Shown here: positions 53,640-64,000 of the stretch, in pieces | Position numbering within the stretch: the stretch's first letter is position 1 | How the letters are laid out: the number at the start of each line of letters is the position of its first letter | Assembly (NCBI GenBank): GCA_030052745.1 | Contig: JANBVO010000009.1 | Span: 310,001 to 374,000, forward strand | Source: Pleurostoma richardsiae | Taxonomy: Eukaryota; Ascomycota; Sordariomycetes; Calosphaeriales; Pleurostomataceae | Reading direction: 5' to 3' | Length of the DNA: 64,000 bases | Program-made: the position numbers and the translations under genes | The notes under the pieces: generated by a model | Seen by the model: the letters and a program-made list of their open reading frames with translations, nothing else | Told to the model about the DNA's origin: nothing | The model's database searches: none

Positions 53640-54059
53640 CCAGGCTCTACTGGTTCCCGTACAAAACAAAATATGCTTTGTTATGCTTTGTTCAAGGCCG
53701 CCTAACGATGTTGGCATGTGAAATACTGCTATTATGCTGTGTCGATGTGGCTACTTGGCAGAACATATGTATGCTTGGTCTGAGCACGGTTGCCTTCCGA
53801 TACCAGCGTCCGACTGTTTCGGTCAGGGTTTGTCTCTTGGGTGGGTAGGGTCCTATGGTCCTCGCCGGACTAGGACCCGCTGGAGGTGTGGGGACTTGCT
53901 TATGCTAGCTTTCGAGATTCCTCGGGGCGAGGGACTCCATGTTAGACTGCGGCTGTGGGTGGATTTGGTAGATGCCAAAATTAGCTAGCCTGTCTAAAGC
54001 ATGAGTTACAACAACTCCCAATGCATCTTGCCACGTGATCCTGTTGCAGTTGGCTACCC
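53640..54059. other. 3' flank of the aldehyde dehydrogenase gene, no gene seen
   Basis: About 400 bases of unique DNA before the repeat array begins. Confidence 0.4.
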
Positions 54060-54935
54060 TGGATGGTGGATCAGGTTTATCTGCAATTCCTCATGCGGAT
54101 TACTGGGCGTTATAGAGGTTACGCTTGATGGCAATAAGCTTCTGACTCGGCCACTGACGGATAGCATGATCCAGAAAGTCTAGGCATCGTTAGGAGAGGT
54201 CAACAGGAAGGCATCGTTATATTTATGTACTCGAGTACTGGGTGTCATAGAAGTTACGCTTGATAGCGATAAGCCTCTAACTCGGCCACTGACGGATAAC
54301 ATGATCCAAGAAGTCTAGGTATCGTTAGGAATACAGGAGAGATCAACAGGAAGGCATCGTTATACTTACTCATGTACTCGAGTACTGGGCGTTATAGAAG
54401 TTACGCTTGATGGCAATAAGCTTCTGACTCGGCCACTGACGGATAGCATGATCCAGGAAGTCTAGGCATCGTTAGGAGAGGTCAACGAGAAGGTATCGTT
54501 ACACTAACTCATGTACTCCAGGACGGAGGTGTTCCAATCCACTCTGCCTTCAAGATACGCTCTCAAAGCGCCAAATCGGATCGTCCCAGCTGGTCTCACG
54601 ATGACGTAGAACGTGTTATCGGTTGGTGGCAATAAGCTTCTGACTCGGCCACTGACGGATAACATGGTCTAGGCATTGTTAGGAAGACAGGAGAGGCTAA
54701 CAGAGAGACCTCATCACACTTACTCAACCCAATCTATCTTGCCTTCAAGATACGCTCTCAAAGCGCCAATTCGGATCGTCCCAGTTGGTCTCACGGTGAT
54801 GTAGAACGTGTTACCGGTTGATGGCAATAAGCTTCTGACTCGGCCACTGACGGATAGCATGATCCAGGAAGTCTAGGCATTGTTAGGAAGACAGGAGAGG
54901 CCAATAGAGAGACCTCATCGCACTTACTCATATAA
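54060..54935 (-). repeat. Tandem array of exon-plus-intron-like units (about 5 copies), decayed coding
   Basis: On the minus strand the same acceptor (ATGCCTAG or ATACCTAG before AC) recurs with gtctagg at 54871, 54667, 54460, 54313 and 54178. It lies downstream of a GTAAGT-type donor (54928, 54723, 54509, 54371; the last copy reads ATAAATAT). Each unit has a short apparent intron, about 55 bases in the best copies, with a CCTAAC branch-like site. It is followed by about 30 residues including FLDHAIRQWPSQKLIAI, then RNFYNAQY or an alternative block (ALRAYLEGKIDWV). Unit lengths are about 204, 207, 147 and 135 bases. Frame is not kept from copy to copy and stops occur, so this is not a working gene. 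Splice sites are better preserved than coding frames. Multiplication of whole exon-intron modules is inferred. Confidence 0.65.
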
Positions 54936-55014
54936 CCCAATCTATTTTGCCTTCAAGATACGCTCTCAAAGCGCCAATTCGGATCGTCCCAGTTGGTCTC
55001 ACGGTGACGTAGGA

Positions 55015-55300
55015 CGTGTTATCGGTCCTGCCCTTGGTCGGTTTCTCTCTCGGTCTGTGTCGGTCGGATCGTCCCAGTCGGTCCAACGACGATGCCCTTG
55101 GTCGATTTCTCTCTCGGTCTGTGTCAGTCGGGTCGTCCCAATTGGTCTCACAGTGACGTAGGACGTGTTATCGGTCCTGCCCTTGGTCGGTTTCTCTCTC
55201 GGTCTGTGTCGGTCGGGTCGTGCCAATTGGTCTCACAGTGACGTAGAACGTGTTATCGGTCCTGCCCTTGGTCGGTTTCTCTCTCGGTCCATGTCAACCT
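55015..55300. repeat. Tandem repeat of about 85 bp, four copies
   Basis: GGTTTCTCTCTCGG recurs at about 55040, 55104 (imperfect), 55189 and 55274, giving spacings of 64, 85 and 85 bases. The unit includes GACGTAGGACGTGTTATCGG and TGCCCTTGGTC. The same bases also join copies of the adjacent exon-intron array (GACGTAGAACGTGTTA at 54603), so the two arrays share ancestry. No protein product is suggested. Confidence 0.7.
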
Positions 55301-55484
55301 CAATGCGCAGAGCCTGCTCCTTGAGCTTGTTGCGGCACCAGGCCAGCTTTCGGGCATCATGCAACCAGAAATGCTTGTAACGGTATCGTTTCGAATGAAC
55401 AACTCGAAGGCTTCGGGAAGTAACTAGGATAAGAGAGCGCTGTCAATTCCGTGAATAAGCAAACTGCAAGTTGAGTTCATCTTG

Positions 55485-55660
55485 TTAAGAGTGAGGGCCC
55501 CGGGAGAGATGGAGGGTGCAGTAAAGGAAGGTAGGTAGGTACGTAGGCAGTAGTATGGTCACGTGATAATACCCGTAGGAACGGAGTCGGGTCTGGACAG
55601 TGCCCGTGTTCCAGACAGTCTTGCTTGGCCACTTGCGGATGGCTTGATAGTCGGAAGGAA
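55485..55660 (-). pseudogene. Decayed coding fragment related to the repeat array
   Basis: The minus-strand frame reads DYQAIRKWPSKTVWNTGTV and ends in a TAA at 55485-55487. AIRKWPSK parallels AIRQWPSQ of the exon-intron array. It has no start and no identifiable family, and could be a relic of the same ancestor. Low confidence. Confidence 0.3.
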
Positions 55661-56114
55661 GATATGCTTAGGTACGTCTCCGACCTAAAAATCCATTATA
55701 ATTGATAAGTGATATTATGAATGTGATCTGTGGCCCGAAGTCAAAGGGCAAGTTTGTGCAGACAGCCGAGCCATTCTGTCCGGCAGCAGGCTGCAGGGCG
55801 CATCGCTCAGGCGGCTCTTTGTGGTGTTACTTTGTGGTTTTGTTTCGTTGATGGGCGCAAGTCTGTTTACCGGGTCGAGGATCCGATGGTGTGCTTCTGC
55901 GAGTAGAATCGAATATGGGTAGTCTGTAGAGCAGGGACCGTCCGTCGTCTCTTCTCTTTCTCTTTGACCTTGACTGAGTCGAGGATGTGACGGCAGTCAG
56001 AGCGCCAGGATCTTGGTGTGCTAGCTGATCCGTAAGAGAGCTGGGAATAGTATTTAGAATCTTTTGGACCTGGGCAATGTAGGTCAGCAGACGCCGATTA
56101 TTAACGAGACGATC

Positions 56115-56644: not shown

Positions 56645-58150
56645 AGGACGTTGGGGTCTGGTATCGAGCTTTACGCAGAGTAAGTGGTAAGAGATGGGGA
56701 TTTAAGTAAGATGGACGACTAATGACTTCATCGATGATAAAATATGTATACCTCGTCGTTCTGGACTCGAACTGACATATATGTGTGTCTCGCCGTCTGG
56801 AGTGGAAGTGGCCGAAAGGGACGATGATGCTCCGCCTGGTATTCCCGCGAGCACGAACGACAATCTTGCTATTCAGAGCGGGAAGTGTTCCCTCCCGCGT
56901 TCTGTTTGGTATGGATCCTCGCCGTTAGTCTACGGCATCTTATCGCCATGTTGTCTTCGTTACCCCCGAAGGAGAGATCGAGATCGTTCCGGTGATAAGT
57001 AGCAGTCTCTCTGCTGGTTAGGCGTGTAGTCTTGTATGCCGTCCCTCCTATAGTATAAGTGGCCGCGAGAGAGGAGGCTTGATGTGTAGAAATGACCTAC
57101 GTCATAATAGGGTGTAGAGGAGAAATGTTTTATTAGTGGCTATCTCTGTACAGGGTAGAACCGTTCTCGATCTTTTCGTACAGCCGTCCTGCGCCTGTCC
57201 GATACCAAGACCGCCTGCACCGCTCTCTGTTCAACCTCCTCGTTGGCCTTCTGCTTAGTTACGTCTTTAATTCAAGGCCTGAACCAGGGTCTTTGGAATC
57301 GTACTCTAACAGGCTGGAAGAAACCTAGGCCACTTAGAAGAACTTATGCCTGCTTCGCGGTACCCTGGGACCGGACACTCAGACGTCCACCGTCCCAACC
57401 CATCCCATTCCACTACCTCATATATGTCCAGGTACGCGCCTTGAAGGTCCACATACAACATATAACACATCTAATCCATGAGGTCGTGATGTGAGATACG
57501 GAGCAGACATCCATCTTTCGTTACAACTCATCTCTCGCTATTCTCGCGCGGTTCCCCTTGTCCTCCGGGGCGGGGGCACAGCACAGTCGACTTCACAATG
57601 GTCCTGGACAGAGATATGTGGAAGCGTGATGACTAGTACCGTATGATGACTGCGAGTAGTCCACGACTGCGGCAATAGGAGGCTCCCATCTCCTTAAACC
57701 CGCGCAATCTACTACGCACACTAGCGCTCGATCGCGTTGCCACAAATACGCTCCGGTCCCAAAGCATGATCCGATGTGGTACAACATGGAAGAGGTCCTA
57801 CATCAATGATTTTGAAGAACGACCATGATATCGCATCGAACGCTTATATCATGGCGCCGGGCGCCGGGCCTCGCTGGAGATAAGTTGGCGTGGCAACAAG
57901 ACGATTTCGGTATGTTTTCCAATCGGGATTCCAGCACTCTATCCAGTCCCTATCAAAGATTAGGCCCAGCTGTTTACGTCTTTTCCTCTACCAGAGTATA
58001 TTCATCGCAAGAAGGCCAAGCGGGAGAGCGCTCGGGGGACTTCGAGATGTTATGCCGACGAACTAACCAGAGCAGGGTTATCAGCGCAAACGATTACGAG
58101 GAAGTGGTCCAAGCAAGTCGGCAACCTCCTAAATAATTATCTATCTTGTA
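56645..58150. other. Low-gene region with scattered decayed frames
   Basis: Unique DNA between two pseudogene fragments. Short frames occur (57825-58136 on the plus strand is the best) and may belong to the plus-strand pseudogene. No intact gene. Confidence 0.4.
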
Positions 58151-58159
58151 CACCGTACT

Positions 58160-58840
58160 GAAATTCCTCAGCATATCAAGAGGCAATTAACGCCTGGGTT
58201 GATCTGGACAAGCTGCCGACAGAGAAGGCGATGGTAGGCATCGACGACCTGCCTCTGGGCTTTGCCTACCACTGGCATCGTAATATATACGTCTTCTTTA
58301 TTAAGTACGATCGGCTCAACATGCTGGAAATCTTGCTGTCCCATGCCTACATATCGTGGCGGCCCGCAGAGCTCGTTGAATGGAGAGTCTGTCAACGCAA
58401 AGGCTATAATCAAGTCGTAATTTCAGCGTCGACATCGTCAATGAGACTTTCTGTGAAGGGCGTCTCTGCATCGACCTCTGCCACTGAGGGATTGGGCACT
58501 ATACAACCTTCAGGATGTCGTCGAATTTCATGAAGCCGGTGGAACACGAGACCCACAACTCAGATAAACATGTCCAGGGGCATGTCTGAGGGCTTCAAGC
58601 TCCTGCAGAGGCTTCATAATATCTGCTTCAACGCTGTCCACCACGACAAGGTGCCGAATACGGAGACGTACTAACTGTGCCCCTATTACGACGGACGAGG
58701 GGAATATTGGAAGGCGCAGGATGACCCGGAGCCTCGATTCGTGGCTCAGAAGGTGTTATGAGGGGAGGAATGGCACGCATTACAATCACTTCAAGAGTGT
58801 GCAGGTAACTACTTTATTGACTGTCTAGCTACTTGCAGGT
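58160..58840 (+). pseudogene. Decayed gene fragment of unknown family with several nonsense codons
   Basis: Successive pieces read as protein in shifting frames: YQEAINAWVDLDKLPTEKA and YHWHRNIYVFFIKYDRLNML (58170-58400), then NETFCEGRLCIDLCH, then WALYNLQDVVEFHEAGGTRD, then FKLLQRLHNICFNAVHHDKV. The last frame is interrupted by TAA at 58672-58674 and TGA at 58759-58761. Between and after them it reads coding-like (LCPYYDGRGEYWKAQDDPEP; GEEWHALQSLQECAG). An intron-like GTAACTAC...CTTGCAG follows. Both stops are explained by C to T changes at CAA and CGA. The parent gene is unknown to me, and function should be taken as lost. Confidence 0.5.
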
Positions 58841-59077: not shown

Positions 59078-62000
59078 TTAGAGACCACCAGAGTCGGGAT
59101 TTGGCTCCTCGTCGGGATGAACGACGTCCTCATGAGAAGACGAAGCAGGGTCCTCGTGAGACTGACCAGAGGCAGGAGCGTTCCACTGAGACTGACCAGA
59201 GGCGGGAGCGTCCCACTGAGACTGACCAGGGGCGGGAGCGTCCCACTGAGACTGACCAGAGGCGGGAGCGTTCCACTGGGACTGACCAAACGAAGCGGGG
59301 TCCTCGTGAGACTGACCAGAGGCGGGAGCGTCCCACTGAGACTGACCAGAGGCGGGAGCGTCCCACTGAGACTGACCAGAGGCGGGAGCGTTCCACTGAG
59401 ACTGACCAGACGAAGCAGGGTCCTCGTGAGACTGATAAGACGGACCAGTATCCTCGTAAGGGAAACCTTGCAATTTCATCATTTCCCGTTGGAACTCGTC
59501 GAGTGGTCGCGGACGGACGCCGGATATGTCTTCCAGCTTGACACGGAGTCTCGAGTCGAAATGTTCAGAGGGAATGCTAATTTCTTCCGTTCGTCCATCA
59601 TCCATCTTGTGCTGGAACGTGCGTGCCACGGTCTTGGGACAGGACTGGTTATCATGGCCGATCTCGCGACAAATGGAACACTTGGGCTTCTTGTTCGGAC
59701 AATCCGCGGCCTTGTGTCCCATTTCGCCACATTTCCGGCATGTCATGTACTTCTCCTTATCTGGGCAATCCTTCTTGAAATGTCCCGTCTGTCCGCACAA
59801 GAAGCAATCGTTGACCTGATCTGCAGGAGGCGGAGCACCCAAGGATGAGTCGACATTTGAACAGTCTTCCTTGATATGACCAAGCAAGCCGCAGCTGTGG
59901 CATTTCTTCTTCATTGGACGGCGGCAGAGAGCGAGTGGGTGGTCTGTTGCTGAGCAGTTCTGGCATTTCAACGGCTGAAGGCACTCGTGGGTAGAATGAC
60001 CCTTTTCACCGCAATTCTTGCAGATGTCGTCGGTTCCTCTGTAGTCTTGCGTGGAAATCGTGAGCCGGCAATCCTCGTTGAACAGTGCCTGGTATATCTC
60101 GCGGAGTTTGAAGTAATCCATGTCCGGGTCCTTGGCTTTGCGCTTGTATGACAAGTCATGCATACCGTGATTCATCAAGATGATTTCAGCTTGCTTGCTT
60201 CTCGTTAGAGCGACAGCAAGCCGGCGCTGGTCAGCGCAAAAGCCGGGCTGAGTCGTCTGTACCATGTCCACAATCACAAAATCGCGTTCGCTTCCCTGTG
60301 AAGAATCTAGAGTACGAACCTCCACGCGAGCCAGTTGATCCGGGGTGAGTGTGCGCTCCTTGATGCTTTTGTCCAGTGCTTTCTCGTACTGGAGGACTTG
60401 AGCCTTGTAGAAAGGGAGGATAAGCACCTTCGACGGTCGACTAGCTTCAGGTCCGACGCCGGTCAGGCCGGGAATCTCCAAATACTCAAGAAGAATCTTC
60501 ATGACGTATTGAACGTGATCGGTGTTATACGTGGACTTGCCCAAGTTGCCGGTCTGCGAGGACGGCAGTTCGATCAGAAGGCGATTCCGGGACTCTGACA
60601 TATCTGGATGCAAGCGCTGCAGAAACTTTCGGTGCTGAACAATTGAAGGATGTTTCAAGTTCTCTGCTTCCCGCGAAGAAACCATTTGTCTAGAGTAGAA
60701 AAGCCTGGACGGCAAGGCACTGAGGTGTGAAAGCGATCGATGGTTGACGGTCAGATAAGACTTGACGACGCCGGCTTCTGTGGCACGGTGCAGGGTCGAC
60801 TTCCGATGCTGCAACTTGTAGGGGTCGACCAGGGCGTTTGAGACCATGGTGGTGAAAACCGGAAGCTGGCGAGGATCTCCGACGACCATGAAGAGATTCG
60901 GAGTGAAACGCGCGATGGGAATCAGCAGCCCCAACTCGCTCATGCGGCCTGCCTCATCCACAAAGATCATGTCGACATTCTGGCCGACAGCGGAACGGAA
61001 TTTGGCGTGATTGATTGCAACTGGAGTGGCTGCAATGACGCCGGTGAACTGCTCAAGATATTCCTTATAAAGGCGTGCCACTTCGGTGGAGAGCACGCTC
61101 TTTTGCGAATTCTCTAGGCTTCCGCTGGTGTTGAACTCCTCGAGAATCTCGGTAATCAGCGGCCAGGCAGACTTGTTCTTCTGGTAGTACAGAAAGGCGG
61201 CGGTGTGTAACGACAACTGCTTCAGGCGAGGCGAATGTGAGCTGCGTCGAGAGTCATGCAACTCCAAGGCGAGTTTAGACAGTTCATGATGTGCCATGAA
61301 TTTGTCGGTGACGCTGACGATGGATCTCTGTGCCTGCTCTTTGTCGAAGGGATCGTCGGTCTTCTCGCTGGCGCGTTGCAGGTTCCAGTCATCGATCTCA
61401 GTCTCGAAGTTGTACATTCTGACCACCTGACTCGTGTCCTTTCCCATAGCTGCGTACGCATTGGCCATCTTCTGCGCGAAGTCGTCCACGCCTTTGTTGT
61501 GACTGACCAGGTACAGAGTCTTGTACGGCTGGTCCACGTTTTGATCACCGAAGCGCAACATCAAGTTGATGAAAGTGATCAGCTTGGTCTTTCCAGAACC
61601 CGGGACACCGGCAACGAATTTCAAGGCAAGGATGTTGTTCGGGAGATTAGCATACACCGCTTGCTGGTCGCCATCAAGTTCGTTCCAGATGTCGCGCAGG
61701 TACATCGGCACCTTGTCGATGGTGTCCTCCTTGAGAATGTTCGTCATATGCGGATACTTCTCGAACACGTTGGAGGATAAGTTGTCAGTCAGTTCGGGAA
61801 AGTCGAGCAGCCATCTATGCACCATCTGCGACCATTCTGACGGCGGTGGCTGAGCCGATCGGGGGTAGTGTAAGTCATTGATCGCCGAGGATTCGGCAGC
61901 GAGCGTCTTGTCCGAAGGGGTGGTGAAGAAGGTCACTTTCAAGGCGTTCTCTTGCTGGGCGATGTATCGCTTGAAGCATCCCTGCAGATCCGTCTCATCA

Positions 62001-63655
62001 TTCCCAACAGCCATCATGGGCACCTTGACGTCAATAGGCAATCGCTCCTGGCCTTCGGGGATCTCATCCTTTGGCTCCAAGGGAATGGTGACTAGGAAGA
62101 ACTTGGTCTCCATCGAACTGACTGTCTCGAACTGGTGAGGGATGCGCTCTGCCTTCCATCGTCCGGCGTCCCAAAGAGGCATATTGGTGGATGCAGTGTT
62201 GATGGGCTCATCTGCTCCTTCCAGAGCGATTGTACCAGCTTCAAACTTATCCTTGACGTATTTCTCGACACGAATTTGACGCGCCACTCGGTGCTCCTCA
62301 TGCTGGAAACATAGAGTAGCCAAGGGGGGATCTTGCATAGCGCTGTCGTCCGTGAAATACTTGCCAAGCTTGCGTTTGAGATACTGCTCCTTGTACTCTT
62401 CTATCTCAGCATCCTCGACTCCTGTGAGGAAAATTTCCACGAGCTCTTCGACCACAGGATCGCGAGCGCCATATCCTGGTTGACTTGAGTCTGATATGTG
62501 TTGGGAGGTCTCTCCTTCAGGCGGTTGGGGTAACTTCCGTGGGCGCCGCTTGATACCGGAAATTGAAACGACGCATCTCTCACCCTCGTTTGGCAGATAC
62601 TCATCTTGTACTCCTGGGGAAACAGCTAAGACGAATCGTCGATCCATGTTGAGATGCGGCAGCGCGATCGCAAATGCGTCGAACTCAAGTCGCGAACGGG
62701 TCTCCGAGATGCCAGACTCTCGAAGCGCTTCAACGACAGAAGACGTGATGTGAGCGACGAGCTGCTCTTCCGAATCATGGTACCTTGTGCTGGCAGGCAA
62801 GTTAGGGGGAAGCTCCGGCATGTCGCCATCCACGTCGACACGAGGGCAGTTGCTGTGGTGCAACTGGTGAGCTTGAGGAGACTTCACGAACGCCCATGCT
62901 AATGGATGGCCAGTACCCGGTTCGAATGTTGATCGGTCGCGCTTGATTACTTGCCCGAGAATCTTCTCGAGGGGGGGGCCTTCAGTTCCCAAGAATTTCT
63001 TCGCTATAACCTGACCGAAAGTGAACTCCAGGACCACCTTGCGATTCCGATTTCCTTCGAGGATGGCCTTCTCGAGATCGCCGAGCCGATAATACAATTC
63101 CGTGTTGTGGAACCGCAACTGAGCATGTTGAAGGCGGTCAATGTCAAAGTACGCCTTATACGCGTTGATGGAAACCACGCATGCAGTTTGCGGAATACTG
63201 CGAATGTGCGTGGCGAGCTGTTGTGAGTCACAGAAGCCCGCTAAGTGCTCCATGACATTCTCCTGTGCCCTTATCTCGATGAAATCGAAGATATTGACAG
63301 CTGGACCCTTGACAACGATGCTGGCGACTTTCTCTCGAGTGGCCTTGAACGCGTGTACATCCACACGGATCTCAGCGTACTTCCCATCGTACCAGAAGAA
63401 GTGGATCAGGAAGGTGAAAGAATCGTCGTGAGGCACATCGATGGTGGCTGCGGTGATCGGATTGGGGGTACTGAAGGCCTTGCTGTTGACCTTGAGAAAA
63501 CAATTCATTTTCTCGGACTCGTAGACGACCTCGTCTTTCGTCTTTTCGTCTCCTTTTGTCTCATCTGCCCCAGCAGCAATCTTGGATATATTCGTTGCGT
63601 ATAGCACGTTCTCCGTAGTCTCAGTAGTCTGTCGAGAATTAGCACATCTATGCAT
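59078..63655 (-). CDS. Superfamily 1 RNA/DNA helicase with six CCHC zinc knuckles and decapeptide tail
   Basis: A UPF1/NFX1-like P-loop helicase. The first ATG gives 1525 aa, but the true 5' end is uncertain. A strong acceptor with branch signal (TGCTAAT...CGACAG) lies at 63629, so the ATG at 63655 may be inside an intron and exon 1 beyond the window. Walker A is GVPGSGKTKL (about residue 685), motif II is VDEAGRMSELG, and conserved motifs VVGDPRQLPVF, LTVNHRS, LDSSQGSERDFVIVDMV and RRLAVALTRSK follow. The long N-terminal half has no family I recognise. C-terminal to the helicase are six knuckles at 59639-60023: CKNCGEKGHSTHEC, CQNCSATDHPLALC, CHSCGLLGHIKEDC, CFLCGQTGHFKKDC, CRKCGEMGHKAADC and CSICREIGHDNQSC. 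The tail is about nine decapeptides (SQWDAPASGQ) and an acidic end. No disabling mutation was seen, so it appears intact beside decayed DNA. Confidence 0.85.
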   Translation of the reverse strand: MHRCANSRQTTETTENVLYATNISKIAAGADETKGDEKTKDEVVYESEKMNCFLKVNSKAFSTPNPITAATIDVPHDDSFTFLIHFFWYDGKYAEIRVDVHAFKATREKVASIVVKGPAVNIFDFIEIRAQENVMEHLAGFCDSQQLATHIRSIPQTACVVSINAYKAYFDIDRLQHAQLRFHNTELYYRLGDLEKAILEGNRNRKVVLEFTFGQVIAKKFLGTEGPPLEKILGQVIKRDRSTFEPGTGHPLAWAFVKSPQAHQLHHSNCPRVDVDGDMPELPPNLPASTRYHDSEEQLVAHITSSVVEALRESGISETRSRLEFDAFAIALPHLNMDRRFVLAVSPGVQDEYLPNEGERCVVSISGIKRRPRKLPQPPEGETSQHISDSSQPGYGARDPVVEELVEIFLTGVEDAEIEEYKEQYLKRKLGKYFTDDSAMQDPPLATLCFQHEEHRVARQIRVEKYVKDKFEAGTIALEGADEPINTASTNMPLWDAGRWKAERIPHQFETVSSMETKFFLVTIPLEPKDEIPEGQERLPIDVKVPMMAVGNDETDLQGCFKRYIAQQENALKVTFFTTPSDKTLAAESSAINDLHYPRSAQPPPSEWSQMVHRWLLDFPELTDNLSSNVFEKYPHMTNILKEDTIDKVPMYLRDIWNELDGDQQAVYANLPNNILALKFVAGVPGSGKTKLITFINLMLRFGDQNVDQPYKTLYLVSHNKGVDDFAQKMANAYAAMGKDTSQVVRMYNFETEIDDWNLQRASEKTDDPFDKEQAQRSIVSVTDKFMAHHELSKLALELHDSRRSSHSPRLKQLSLHTAAFLYYQKNKSAWPLITEILEEFNTSGSLENSQKSVLSTEVARLYKEYLEQFTGVIAATPVAINHAKFRSAVGQNVDMIFVDEAGRMSELGLLIPIARFTPNLFMVVGDPRQLPVFTTMVSNALVDPYKLQHRKSTLHRATEAGVVKSYLTVNHRSLSHLSALPSRLFYSRQMVSSREAENLKHPSIVQHRKFLQRLHPDMSESRNRLLIELPSSQTGNLGKSTYNTDHVQYVMKILLEYLEIPGLTGVGPEASRPSKVLILPFYKAQVLQYEKALDKSIKERTLTPDQLARVEVRTLDSSQGSERDFVIVDMVQTTQPGFCADQRRLAVALTRSKQAEIILMNHGMHDLSYKRKAKDPDMDYFKLREIYQALFNEDCRLTISTQDYRGTDDICKNCGEKGHSTHECLQPLKCQNCSATDHPLALCRRPMKKKCHSCGLLGHIKEDCSNVDSSLGAPPPADQVNDCFLCGQTGHFKKDCPDKEKYMTCRKCGEMGHKAADCPNKKPKCSICREIGHDNQSCPKTVARTFQHKMDDGRTEEISIPSEHFDSRLRVKLEDISGVRPRPLDEFQREMMKLQGFPYEDTGPSYQSHEDPASSGQSQWNAPASGQSQWDAPASGQSQWDAPASGQSHEDPASFGQSQWNAPASGQSQWDAPAPGQSQWDAPASGQSQWNAPASGQSHEDPASSSHEDVVHPDEEPNPDSGGL
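59150..59415 (-). repeat. 30-bp in-frame minisatellite encoding SQWDAPASGQ decapeptides
   Basis: About nine near-identical 30-base units inside the 3' coding end of the helicase gene. Two unit types alternate, one encoding SQW(D/N)APASGQ and one SHEDPASFGQ. Every unit is a multiple of three, so length can vary without frameshift. The high identity indicates recent expansion or homogenisation. Confidence 0.9.
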
Positions 63656-63689
63656 GAACAAAAACGTAAAAGCGGGGAGAAAGGAAAGA

Positions 63690-64000
63690 GAGAGAAAAAC
63701 GAAGAGAAGAAAAGGGAAAGGAAGGGAAACGGGGAAAACGAAAAAGGGAAAACGAAAGAGGGAAAATAGGAGGGAAAATAGGAGGGAAAGGAGGGAAAGG
63801 AGGGAAAGGAGGGAAAGGAGGGAAAGGAGGGAAAGGAGGGAAAGGAGGGAAAGGAGGGAAAGAAGGGAAAGGAGGGAAAGGAGGGAAAATAGGAGGGAAA
63901 GAGGATGGAAAGAGGATGGAAAGAGGATGGAAAGAGGATGGAAAGAGGATGGAAAGAGGATGGAAAGAGGAGGGAAAGAGGAGGGAAAGAGGAGGGAAAG
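63690..64000. repeat. Purine-rich minisatellite block at window edge
   Basis: About 300 bases of G/A only on the plus strand. Units: GGAGGGAAA (9 bases, about a dozen copies, roughly 63770-63895), GAGGATGGAAA (11 bases, six copies, 63901-63966) and GAGGAGGGAAA (three copies to the end). On the minus strand this is a C/T tract directly upstream of the helicase gene, perhaps in its intron or promoter. It continues past the window. Confidence 0.9.

Follow-up and report, generated by a model that had tools for sequence, protein, structure and literature searches.

The window analysed here, 64,000 nucleotides of the Pleurostoma richardsiae genome (C126:310001-374000), carries on its minus strand, at 54057-55379, five direct copies of a single intron with partial flanking exons, together with 85-bp copies of exon 2 sequence. 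The intron-bearing module is composed of the end of exon 2, intron 2 and the start of exon 3 of an Argonaute gene that is intact on another contig, C24. We consider it likely, with a probability of roughly 0.8, that this array (array 1) is a rearranged and tandemly amplified pseudogene of a lost C24-type Argonaute paralog, without function. It is homologous to an intact gene and has retained the intron, which places it with the non-processed pseudogenes.

The source gene

Array 1 was identified by a DNA search of its own genome (39.4 Mb, 136 contigs) and by reading of the C24 gene, not by Pfam, in which the 29-residue repeated block had no match and the exon 2 fragment at 55212-55379 matched ArgoN under the cut-off (E = 0.003). 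A 141-nt unit used as query gave at least six matches, five on C126 and one on C24. In the genome search the C24 gene matched stretches of the array with E values down to 1.5e-70, so the similarity is not due to chance. Outside C126, the unit and the gene matched C24 only, among the matches listed for this genome. Because the intact Argonaute carries this intron at the corresponding position, the repeats are a real piece of a gene with its intron and not a plain satellite, in agreement with the sequence-only reading that led to this study.

The C24 Argonaute (L007:2175-5491, minus strand, ATG at L007:5491) is predicted to have six exons, separated by introns of 53, 55, 52, 64 and 51 nt, and to encode 1013 residues with no internal stop. 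Its Piwi domain is matched with E = 1.1e-84 and its ArgoN domain with E = 4.3e-11, and from an alignment with AGO3 inspected by eye we take the catalytic D-E-D-H positions to be occupied by D, E, D and H. By alignment score the intact protein is closer to animal AGO1-4 than to fungal QDE-2 (339 bits to AGO3 versus 146 bits to QDE-2), with a smaller gap for the MID-PIWI part alone (212 versus 148 bits). It occurs alongside two QDE-2-like Argonautes, whose long Piwi-side frames score 429 bits to QDE-2 versus 205 to the best animal AGO (C93) and 358 versus 230 bits (C20). The style of genes and introns suggests a filamentous ascomycete.

Structure of array 1

Tandem repeat calls and alignment both bear out the five direct copies that had been described from the letters alone, and place them on the minus strand. 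Tandem Repeats Finder resolves the array into periods of 147 bp (3.0 copies, 54101-54518), 195 bp (3.0 copies, 54400-55026) and 85 bp (2.4 copies, 55093-55296). Eight alignments connect array 1 with C24: five that include exon 3 sequence are 74-84% identical, two exon 2 fragments are 83% and 90% identical, and a 56-bp piece is 95% identical. The repeats proposed at 54060-54935 are thus real, but the extent was too narrow, as sequence derived from the Argonaute spans 54057 to about 55660 (Table 1). Nor are the units whole exon-plus-intron modules, as had been supposed; they comprise intron 2 flanked by portions of exons 2 and 3, and the duplication breakpoints fall inside exons.

Table 1. Argonaute-derived features in the window, in window coordinates.
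Feature	Position	Strand	Description
Copy J	54057-54245	minus	exon 2 end; intron 2 remnant 54180-54226 (donor destroyed); exon 3 into PHEELQ-like sequence; 84% identity to C24 over 54057-54195
Copy I	54237-54385	minus	147-bp unit; intron 2 copy 54315-54369 with GTAAGT, CTAAC and TAG; stop codon within exon 3 part
Copy H	54384-54624	minus	parts of exons 2 and 3 flanking intron 2 copy 54462-54508 (GTTAGT donor); exon 2/exon 3 frame still joinable
Copy G	54619-54819	minus	195-bp unit; intron 2 copy 54669-54723; 9 nt deleted where exon 3 begins
Copy F	54815-55061	minus	parts of exons 2 and 3 on either side of intron 2 copy 54873-54927
Exon 2 piece (DRERNRP...TDNTFYV...)	55062-55317	minus	tandem copies of 85 bp, one of 64 bp; shared 1-nt deletion
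Exon 2 fragment (WLHDARKLAW...)	55212-55379	minus	90% identity to C24; overlaps part of 55062-55317; 51-nt exact match to Argonaute CDS at 55285-55335
Insertion splitting exon 2	55380-55567	minus	55378-55539 80-82% identical to both inverted arms of C55 element
Exon 2 fragment (KTVWNTG...)	55568-55623	minus	95% identity to C24
Exon 3-like scrap (AIRKWPS)	55624-55665	minus	short, diverged, weak; joined to exon 2 fragment
Weak Argonaute fragment	57683-57800	plus	residues about 930-966; E = 6e-8 (DNA) and 0.003 (protein) in the 83.8-kb region
Argonaute fragments	58423-58671	plus	residues about 320-408; 30-nt exact match at 58577-58606

The insertion that splits exon 2 is present in array 1 and missing from the second array described below. 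The related element on C55 (L044:3394-4334) has 161-nt fully complementary inverted arms lying 619 nt apart, and one related arm is found in array 1.

Loss of the reading frame

Relative to C24, a 1-nt deletion in the motif CCGCCCC is found in all three copies aligned over the site (C, D and F), and the second array has the same CGACC state as the deleted copies of array 1; the deletion is therefore older than the amplification. Measured from each acceptor to the next donor, the exons span 149, 160 and 92 nt, and no value is divisible by 3. With the shared deletion, stops and junctions that are out of register, the frame of array 1 is disabled, and the longest open frame in 54060-55379 is 79 codons without splicing and 83 residues with four introns removed.

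We compared differences from C24 at sites covered by at least two copies, where cells are not independent events. Differences carried by a majority of the copies at a site are constrained (8 nonsynonymous, 11 synonymous), in contrast to copy-specific differences (34 nonsynonymous, 13 synonymous; Fisher p = 0.027). Unconstrained change is expected at about 72:28, with 72% nonsynonymous or stop, and the observed copy-specific proportion is 34/47, or 72%. Small and non-independent as these counts are, they indicate that copy-specific change has been neutral, with no coding constraint after disablement. Based on the shared deletion, the out-of-register junctions and the contrast between majority and copy-specific differences, it appears that amplification took place in an already dead gene. 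The majority differences suggest that the ancestor of the array diverged from C24 while functional, although constraint in the C24 lineage alone could contribute to this pattern.

Splice sites of the intron copies

The branch site and acceptor (CTAAC..CCTAG) are exact in all five intron copies, just as the sequence-only reading had it. Its further statement that most copies carry the same donor is right for three of the five, which have GTAAGT (54927, 54723 and 54369); the donor is GTTAGT at 54508 and is destroyed (ATAAAT) at 54226. The intron copies in F, G and I are 55 nt long, while that in H is 47 nt. Loss of the donor in the last copy, J, is confirmed, but its attribution to two C-to-T changes is wrong, because the site, ACATAAATAT in copy J versus ACATGAGTAAGTAT in the neighbouring copy, lacks 4 nt and carries one G-to-A substitution.

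It had also been argued that splice sites are better kept than frames, which would imply constraint. Copy-specific changes occupy 2 of 69 cells at the 14 splice positions versus 47 of 809 in the exons (Fisher p = 0.42), counts that exclude gapped cells and so leave the deletion in copy J uncounted; constraint on the splice sites is thus not borne out. Compared with the rest of the intron, the splice positions do show fewer copy-specific changes (2/69 versus 27/189, p = 0.008). This contrast is real in the data, but in part it reflects the split of the intron's 5′ portion into two strongly divergent forms, F and G being unlike H, I and J at 34-48% of sites. The divergence of F or G from H is 11-13% in exon 2; in exon 3, F and G are separated from H and J by 2-6% and from I by 12%. 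Patchy gene conversion and two source lineages are candidate explanations for this mosaic. A simple one-source history does not account for the intron/exon mosaic of F and G versus H, I and J, which counts against the pseudogene reading in its plainest form. Out-of-register junctions and an old frameshift common to the copies explain why the frames fail, and the contrast between splice sites and frames is therefore no evidence of selection for splicing. As judged from the copies themselves, the splice sites of array 1 appear to have been inherited with the copied DNA and are not demonstrably selected.

A further point against the pseudogene reading is a 30-nt block that is invariant across copies F, G, H and C24; permutation of invariant runs gave p < 0.05 in three of four tests (0.018, 0.0496 and 0.039; 0.20 for exon 3 alone). 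Invariant blocks and exact-match runs of this kind, chosen after the fact, are suggestive and could be explained by old coding constraint.

The wider locus

With the C24 stretch L007 as query, 15 alignments were obtained in an 83.8-kb region made up of the window and 19.8 kb downstream. Eight lie in array 1 (54057-55623, minus strand), three at 57683-58671 (plus strand) and four in a second array. The latter is located beyond the window at region positions 68226-69248, about 13 kb away, on the plus strand and thus inverted with respect to array 1. Here the exon 3 piece is repeated without the intron, and a run of 97 N occupies 68748-68844. Another exon 3-like scrap is found near region position 74960 on the minus strand. 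Sequence upstream of the fragments is common to 55576-55741 and 68127-68273, and likewise to 67950-68137 and 75046-75236; segments of the locus have therefore been duplicated locally and partly inverted.

Other features of the region were noted in passing. Between the Argonaute fragments, a large minus-strand frame at 59081-63997 of the window, which stays open to region position 64192, contains SF1 helicase domains (AAA_11/AAA_12) and CCHC zinc knuckles, and an in-frame 30-bp repeat (59157-59457) lies in its C-terminal end. Two adjoining long open frames lie on the plus strand at L008:7004-9832 (region 71004-73832), the second of which has C2H2 matches just under Pfam cut-offs and a stretch that, by eye, we presume to resemble a tyrosine recombinase; this stretch had no family match, and the protein of the second frame matches itself and one weak place on C104. 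Over the window segment 55993-56976, two stretches of contig C77 match at 88% and 69% identity, and 63764-64000 contains purine-rich tandem repeats of 9, 11 and 22 bp.

Origin of the array and alternative explanations

From these patterns we infer an order of events and a duplication mechanism, and with them an absence of function. A second C24-type Argonaute paralog would have diverged while still functional, until a frameshift broke it and rearrangement scattered it, with some parts inverted, over about 20 kb. Local tandem duplications (about 85, 147 and 195 bp, with no more than short similarity between their ends) would then have amplified the pieces surrounding intron 2, and the copies would have decayed neutrally after amplification. 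Intron, branch site and acceptor were probably carried along as copied DNA and have no demonstrated present use.

Several other explanations were weighed against this one. That the units are spliced into a repeat protein or domain, as an expressed gene with repeated exons, gains some appeal from three perfect donors and five perfect pairs of branch site and acceptor, and splicing of copy H would give an uninterrupted ArgoN-linker segment. However, every step from unit to unit shifts the frame and the junctions contain stops, the upstream frameshift is common to the copies, and the ratio of nonsynonymous to synonymous change among them is neutral. We therefore reject a spliced repeat protein, which is highly improbable, on its frame-shifting exon lengths and junction stops. 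Even less credence, next to none, is given to an introner-like element, a self-multiplying intron. The repetition of a fungal spliceosomal intron would fit, as introner-like elements are described from fungi (PMC4457414), but the unit repeated here has exon sequence on both sides of the intron, and the intron position is that of the Argonaute gene. The 141-nt unit matched C24 and C126 only, among the matches listed; no dispersal of the intron in unrelated genes was seen among them, and this candidate was rejected. Degradation of the copies by RIP, through C-to-T mutations, was tested on the 15 array-to-C24 alignments and is very unlikely. The apparent GTAAGT-to-ATAAAT change of the donor would accord with it, except that a deletion and one substitution account for the loss. 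A cytosine methylase gene is present at C24:235911-237119, and the dinucleotide indices of array 1 (TpA/ApT 0.92 and (CpA+TpG)/(ApC+GpT) 0.96, versus 0.57 and 1.2 in the Argonaute gene) just pass what we take to be the looser RIP thresholds; those of the second array are 0.73 and 1.41. In one alignment of the second array (region 68226-68446; C126:378226-378446), 21 transitions lose GC versus 7 that gain it, and CA-to-T changes are seen at 9/30 sites versus 12/89 in other C contexts, a possible hint of RIP that array 1 does not share. In array 1 itself CA-to-T changes (17/176) show no excess over other C contexts (38/484) or TA-to-C changes (17/138), which contradicts the C-to-T decay read from the sequence earlier, and over all 15 alignments the values are 41/318 for CA-to-T and 25/188 for TA-to-C.

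A functional role is conceivable if the arrays act as a natural silencing trigger. Transcripts of the two inverted arrays would be converted by RdRP and Dicer to siRNAs that repress the intact C24 Argonaute, a feedback in which the RNAi machine restrains its own effector by means of its decayed copies. Transgene tandem arrays act in a comparable way in quelling, as do RR17 partial duplicates in poplar. We regard this as doubtful, though it keeps a small probability because the genome has genes for Dicer, RdRP and Argonaute and retains exact matches of up to 51 nt. Domain matches alone predict these genes: Piwi on three contigs (C24, C20 and C93), RdRP on three, with an internal TGA in the one on C60, and Dicer-dimerisation on two. 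Eight exact matches of at least 21 nt to the Argonaute CDS were found (22, 51, 31, 34 and 30 nt in array 1, 21 and 28 nt in array 2, and 30 nt at 58577-58606), and none of at least 18 nt elsewhere in the 83.8-kb region. In permutation tests, 5 of the 15 alignments had a longest exact run above that of shuffled data at p < 0.05 (lowest p = 0.0014). These runs may nonetheless come from codon constraint on a once-functional gene, and copy-specific change in the array looks neutral. Array 1 is short (about 1.3 kb), and the two arrays, about 13 kb apart, form no hairpin. On the supporting side, quelling in Neurospora is described as favouring large tandem arrays (PMC2650698), and partial duplicates of RR17 as producing siRNAs in Populus, whereas the same account gives no evidence of siRNAs from those of Salix purpurea (PMC10628195). 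Such arrays therefore need not be active.

If the amplified pseudogene is indeed inert, it provides a clear case of intron-carrying repeats that arose by piecewise tandem amplification of a dead gene. From the locus it further seems that this fungus, which retains two QDE-2-like Argonautes, has lost a second copy of the one that scores nearer to animal AGOs. Should the arrays yield small RNAs, they would be a natural counterpart of transgene quelling, directed at the silencing machinery.

Comparison with known systems

Duplicated, non-processed gene-fragment pseudogenes keep introns, contain frameshifts and stops, change neutrally and occur in clusters. The Argonaute scraps resemble them in each of these respects. 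They differ from ordinary fragment pseudogenes in forming separate tandem arrays, in both orientations and of one Argonaute type, and in having, in array 1, an amplified core built around a single intron. Among the matches listed, the open-access titles and abstract openings name no fungal Argonaute-fragment array, which is no proof of absence from print.

The nearest parallels in those sources are found in plants and in Neurospora. RR17 of Populus and Salix, as described, also combines clustered partial copies with intact gene copies elsewhere (PMC10628195); siRNAs are seen there in Populus, whereas the present case consists of DNA sequence alone and its source is a silencing effector. The sex-linked palindromes of willow have truncated Argonaute (AGO4) copies in a rearranged, repeated region, but in a plant, and the cited text on them makes no mention of short intron-bearing tandem units (PMC9917877). 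Quelling transgene arrays of Neurospora, according to their description, differ from the Argonaute array, which occurs naturally, is short, differs from the gene mostly by 10-26%, and whose silencing is putative; the two are alike in their tandem copies and in a genome with Argonaute, RdRP and Dicer genes (PMC2650698).
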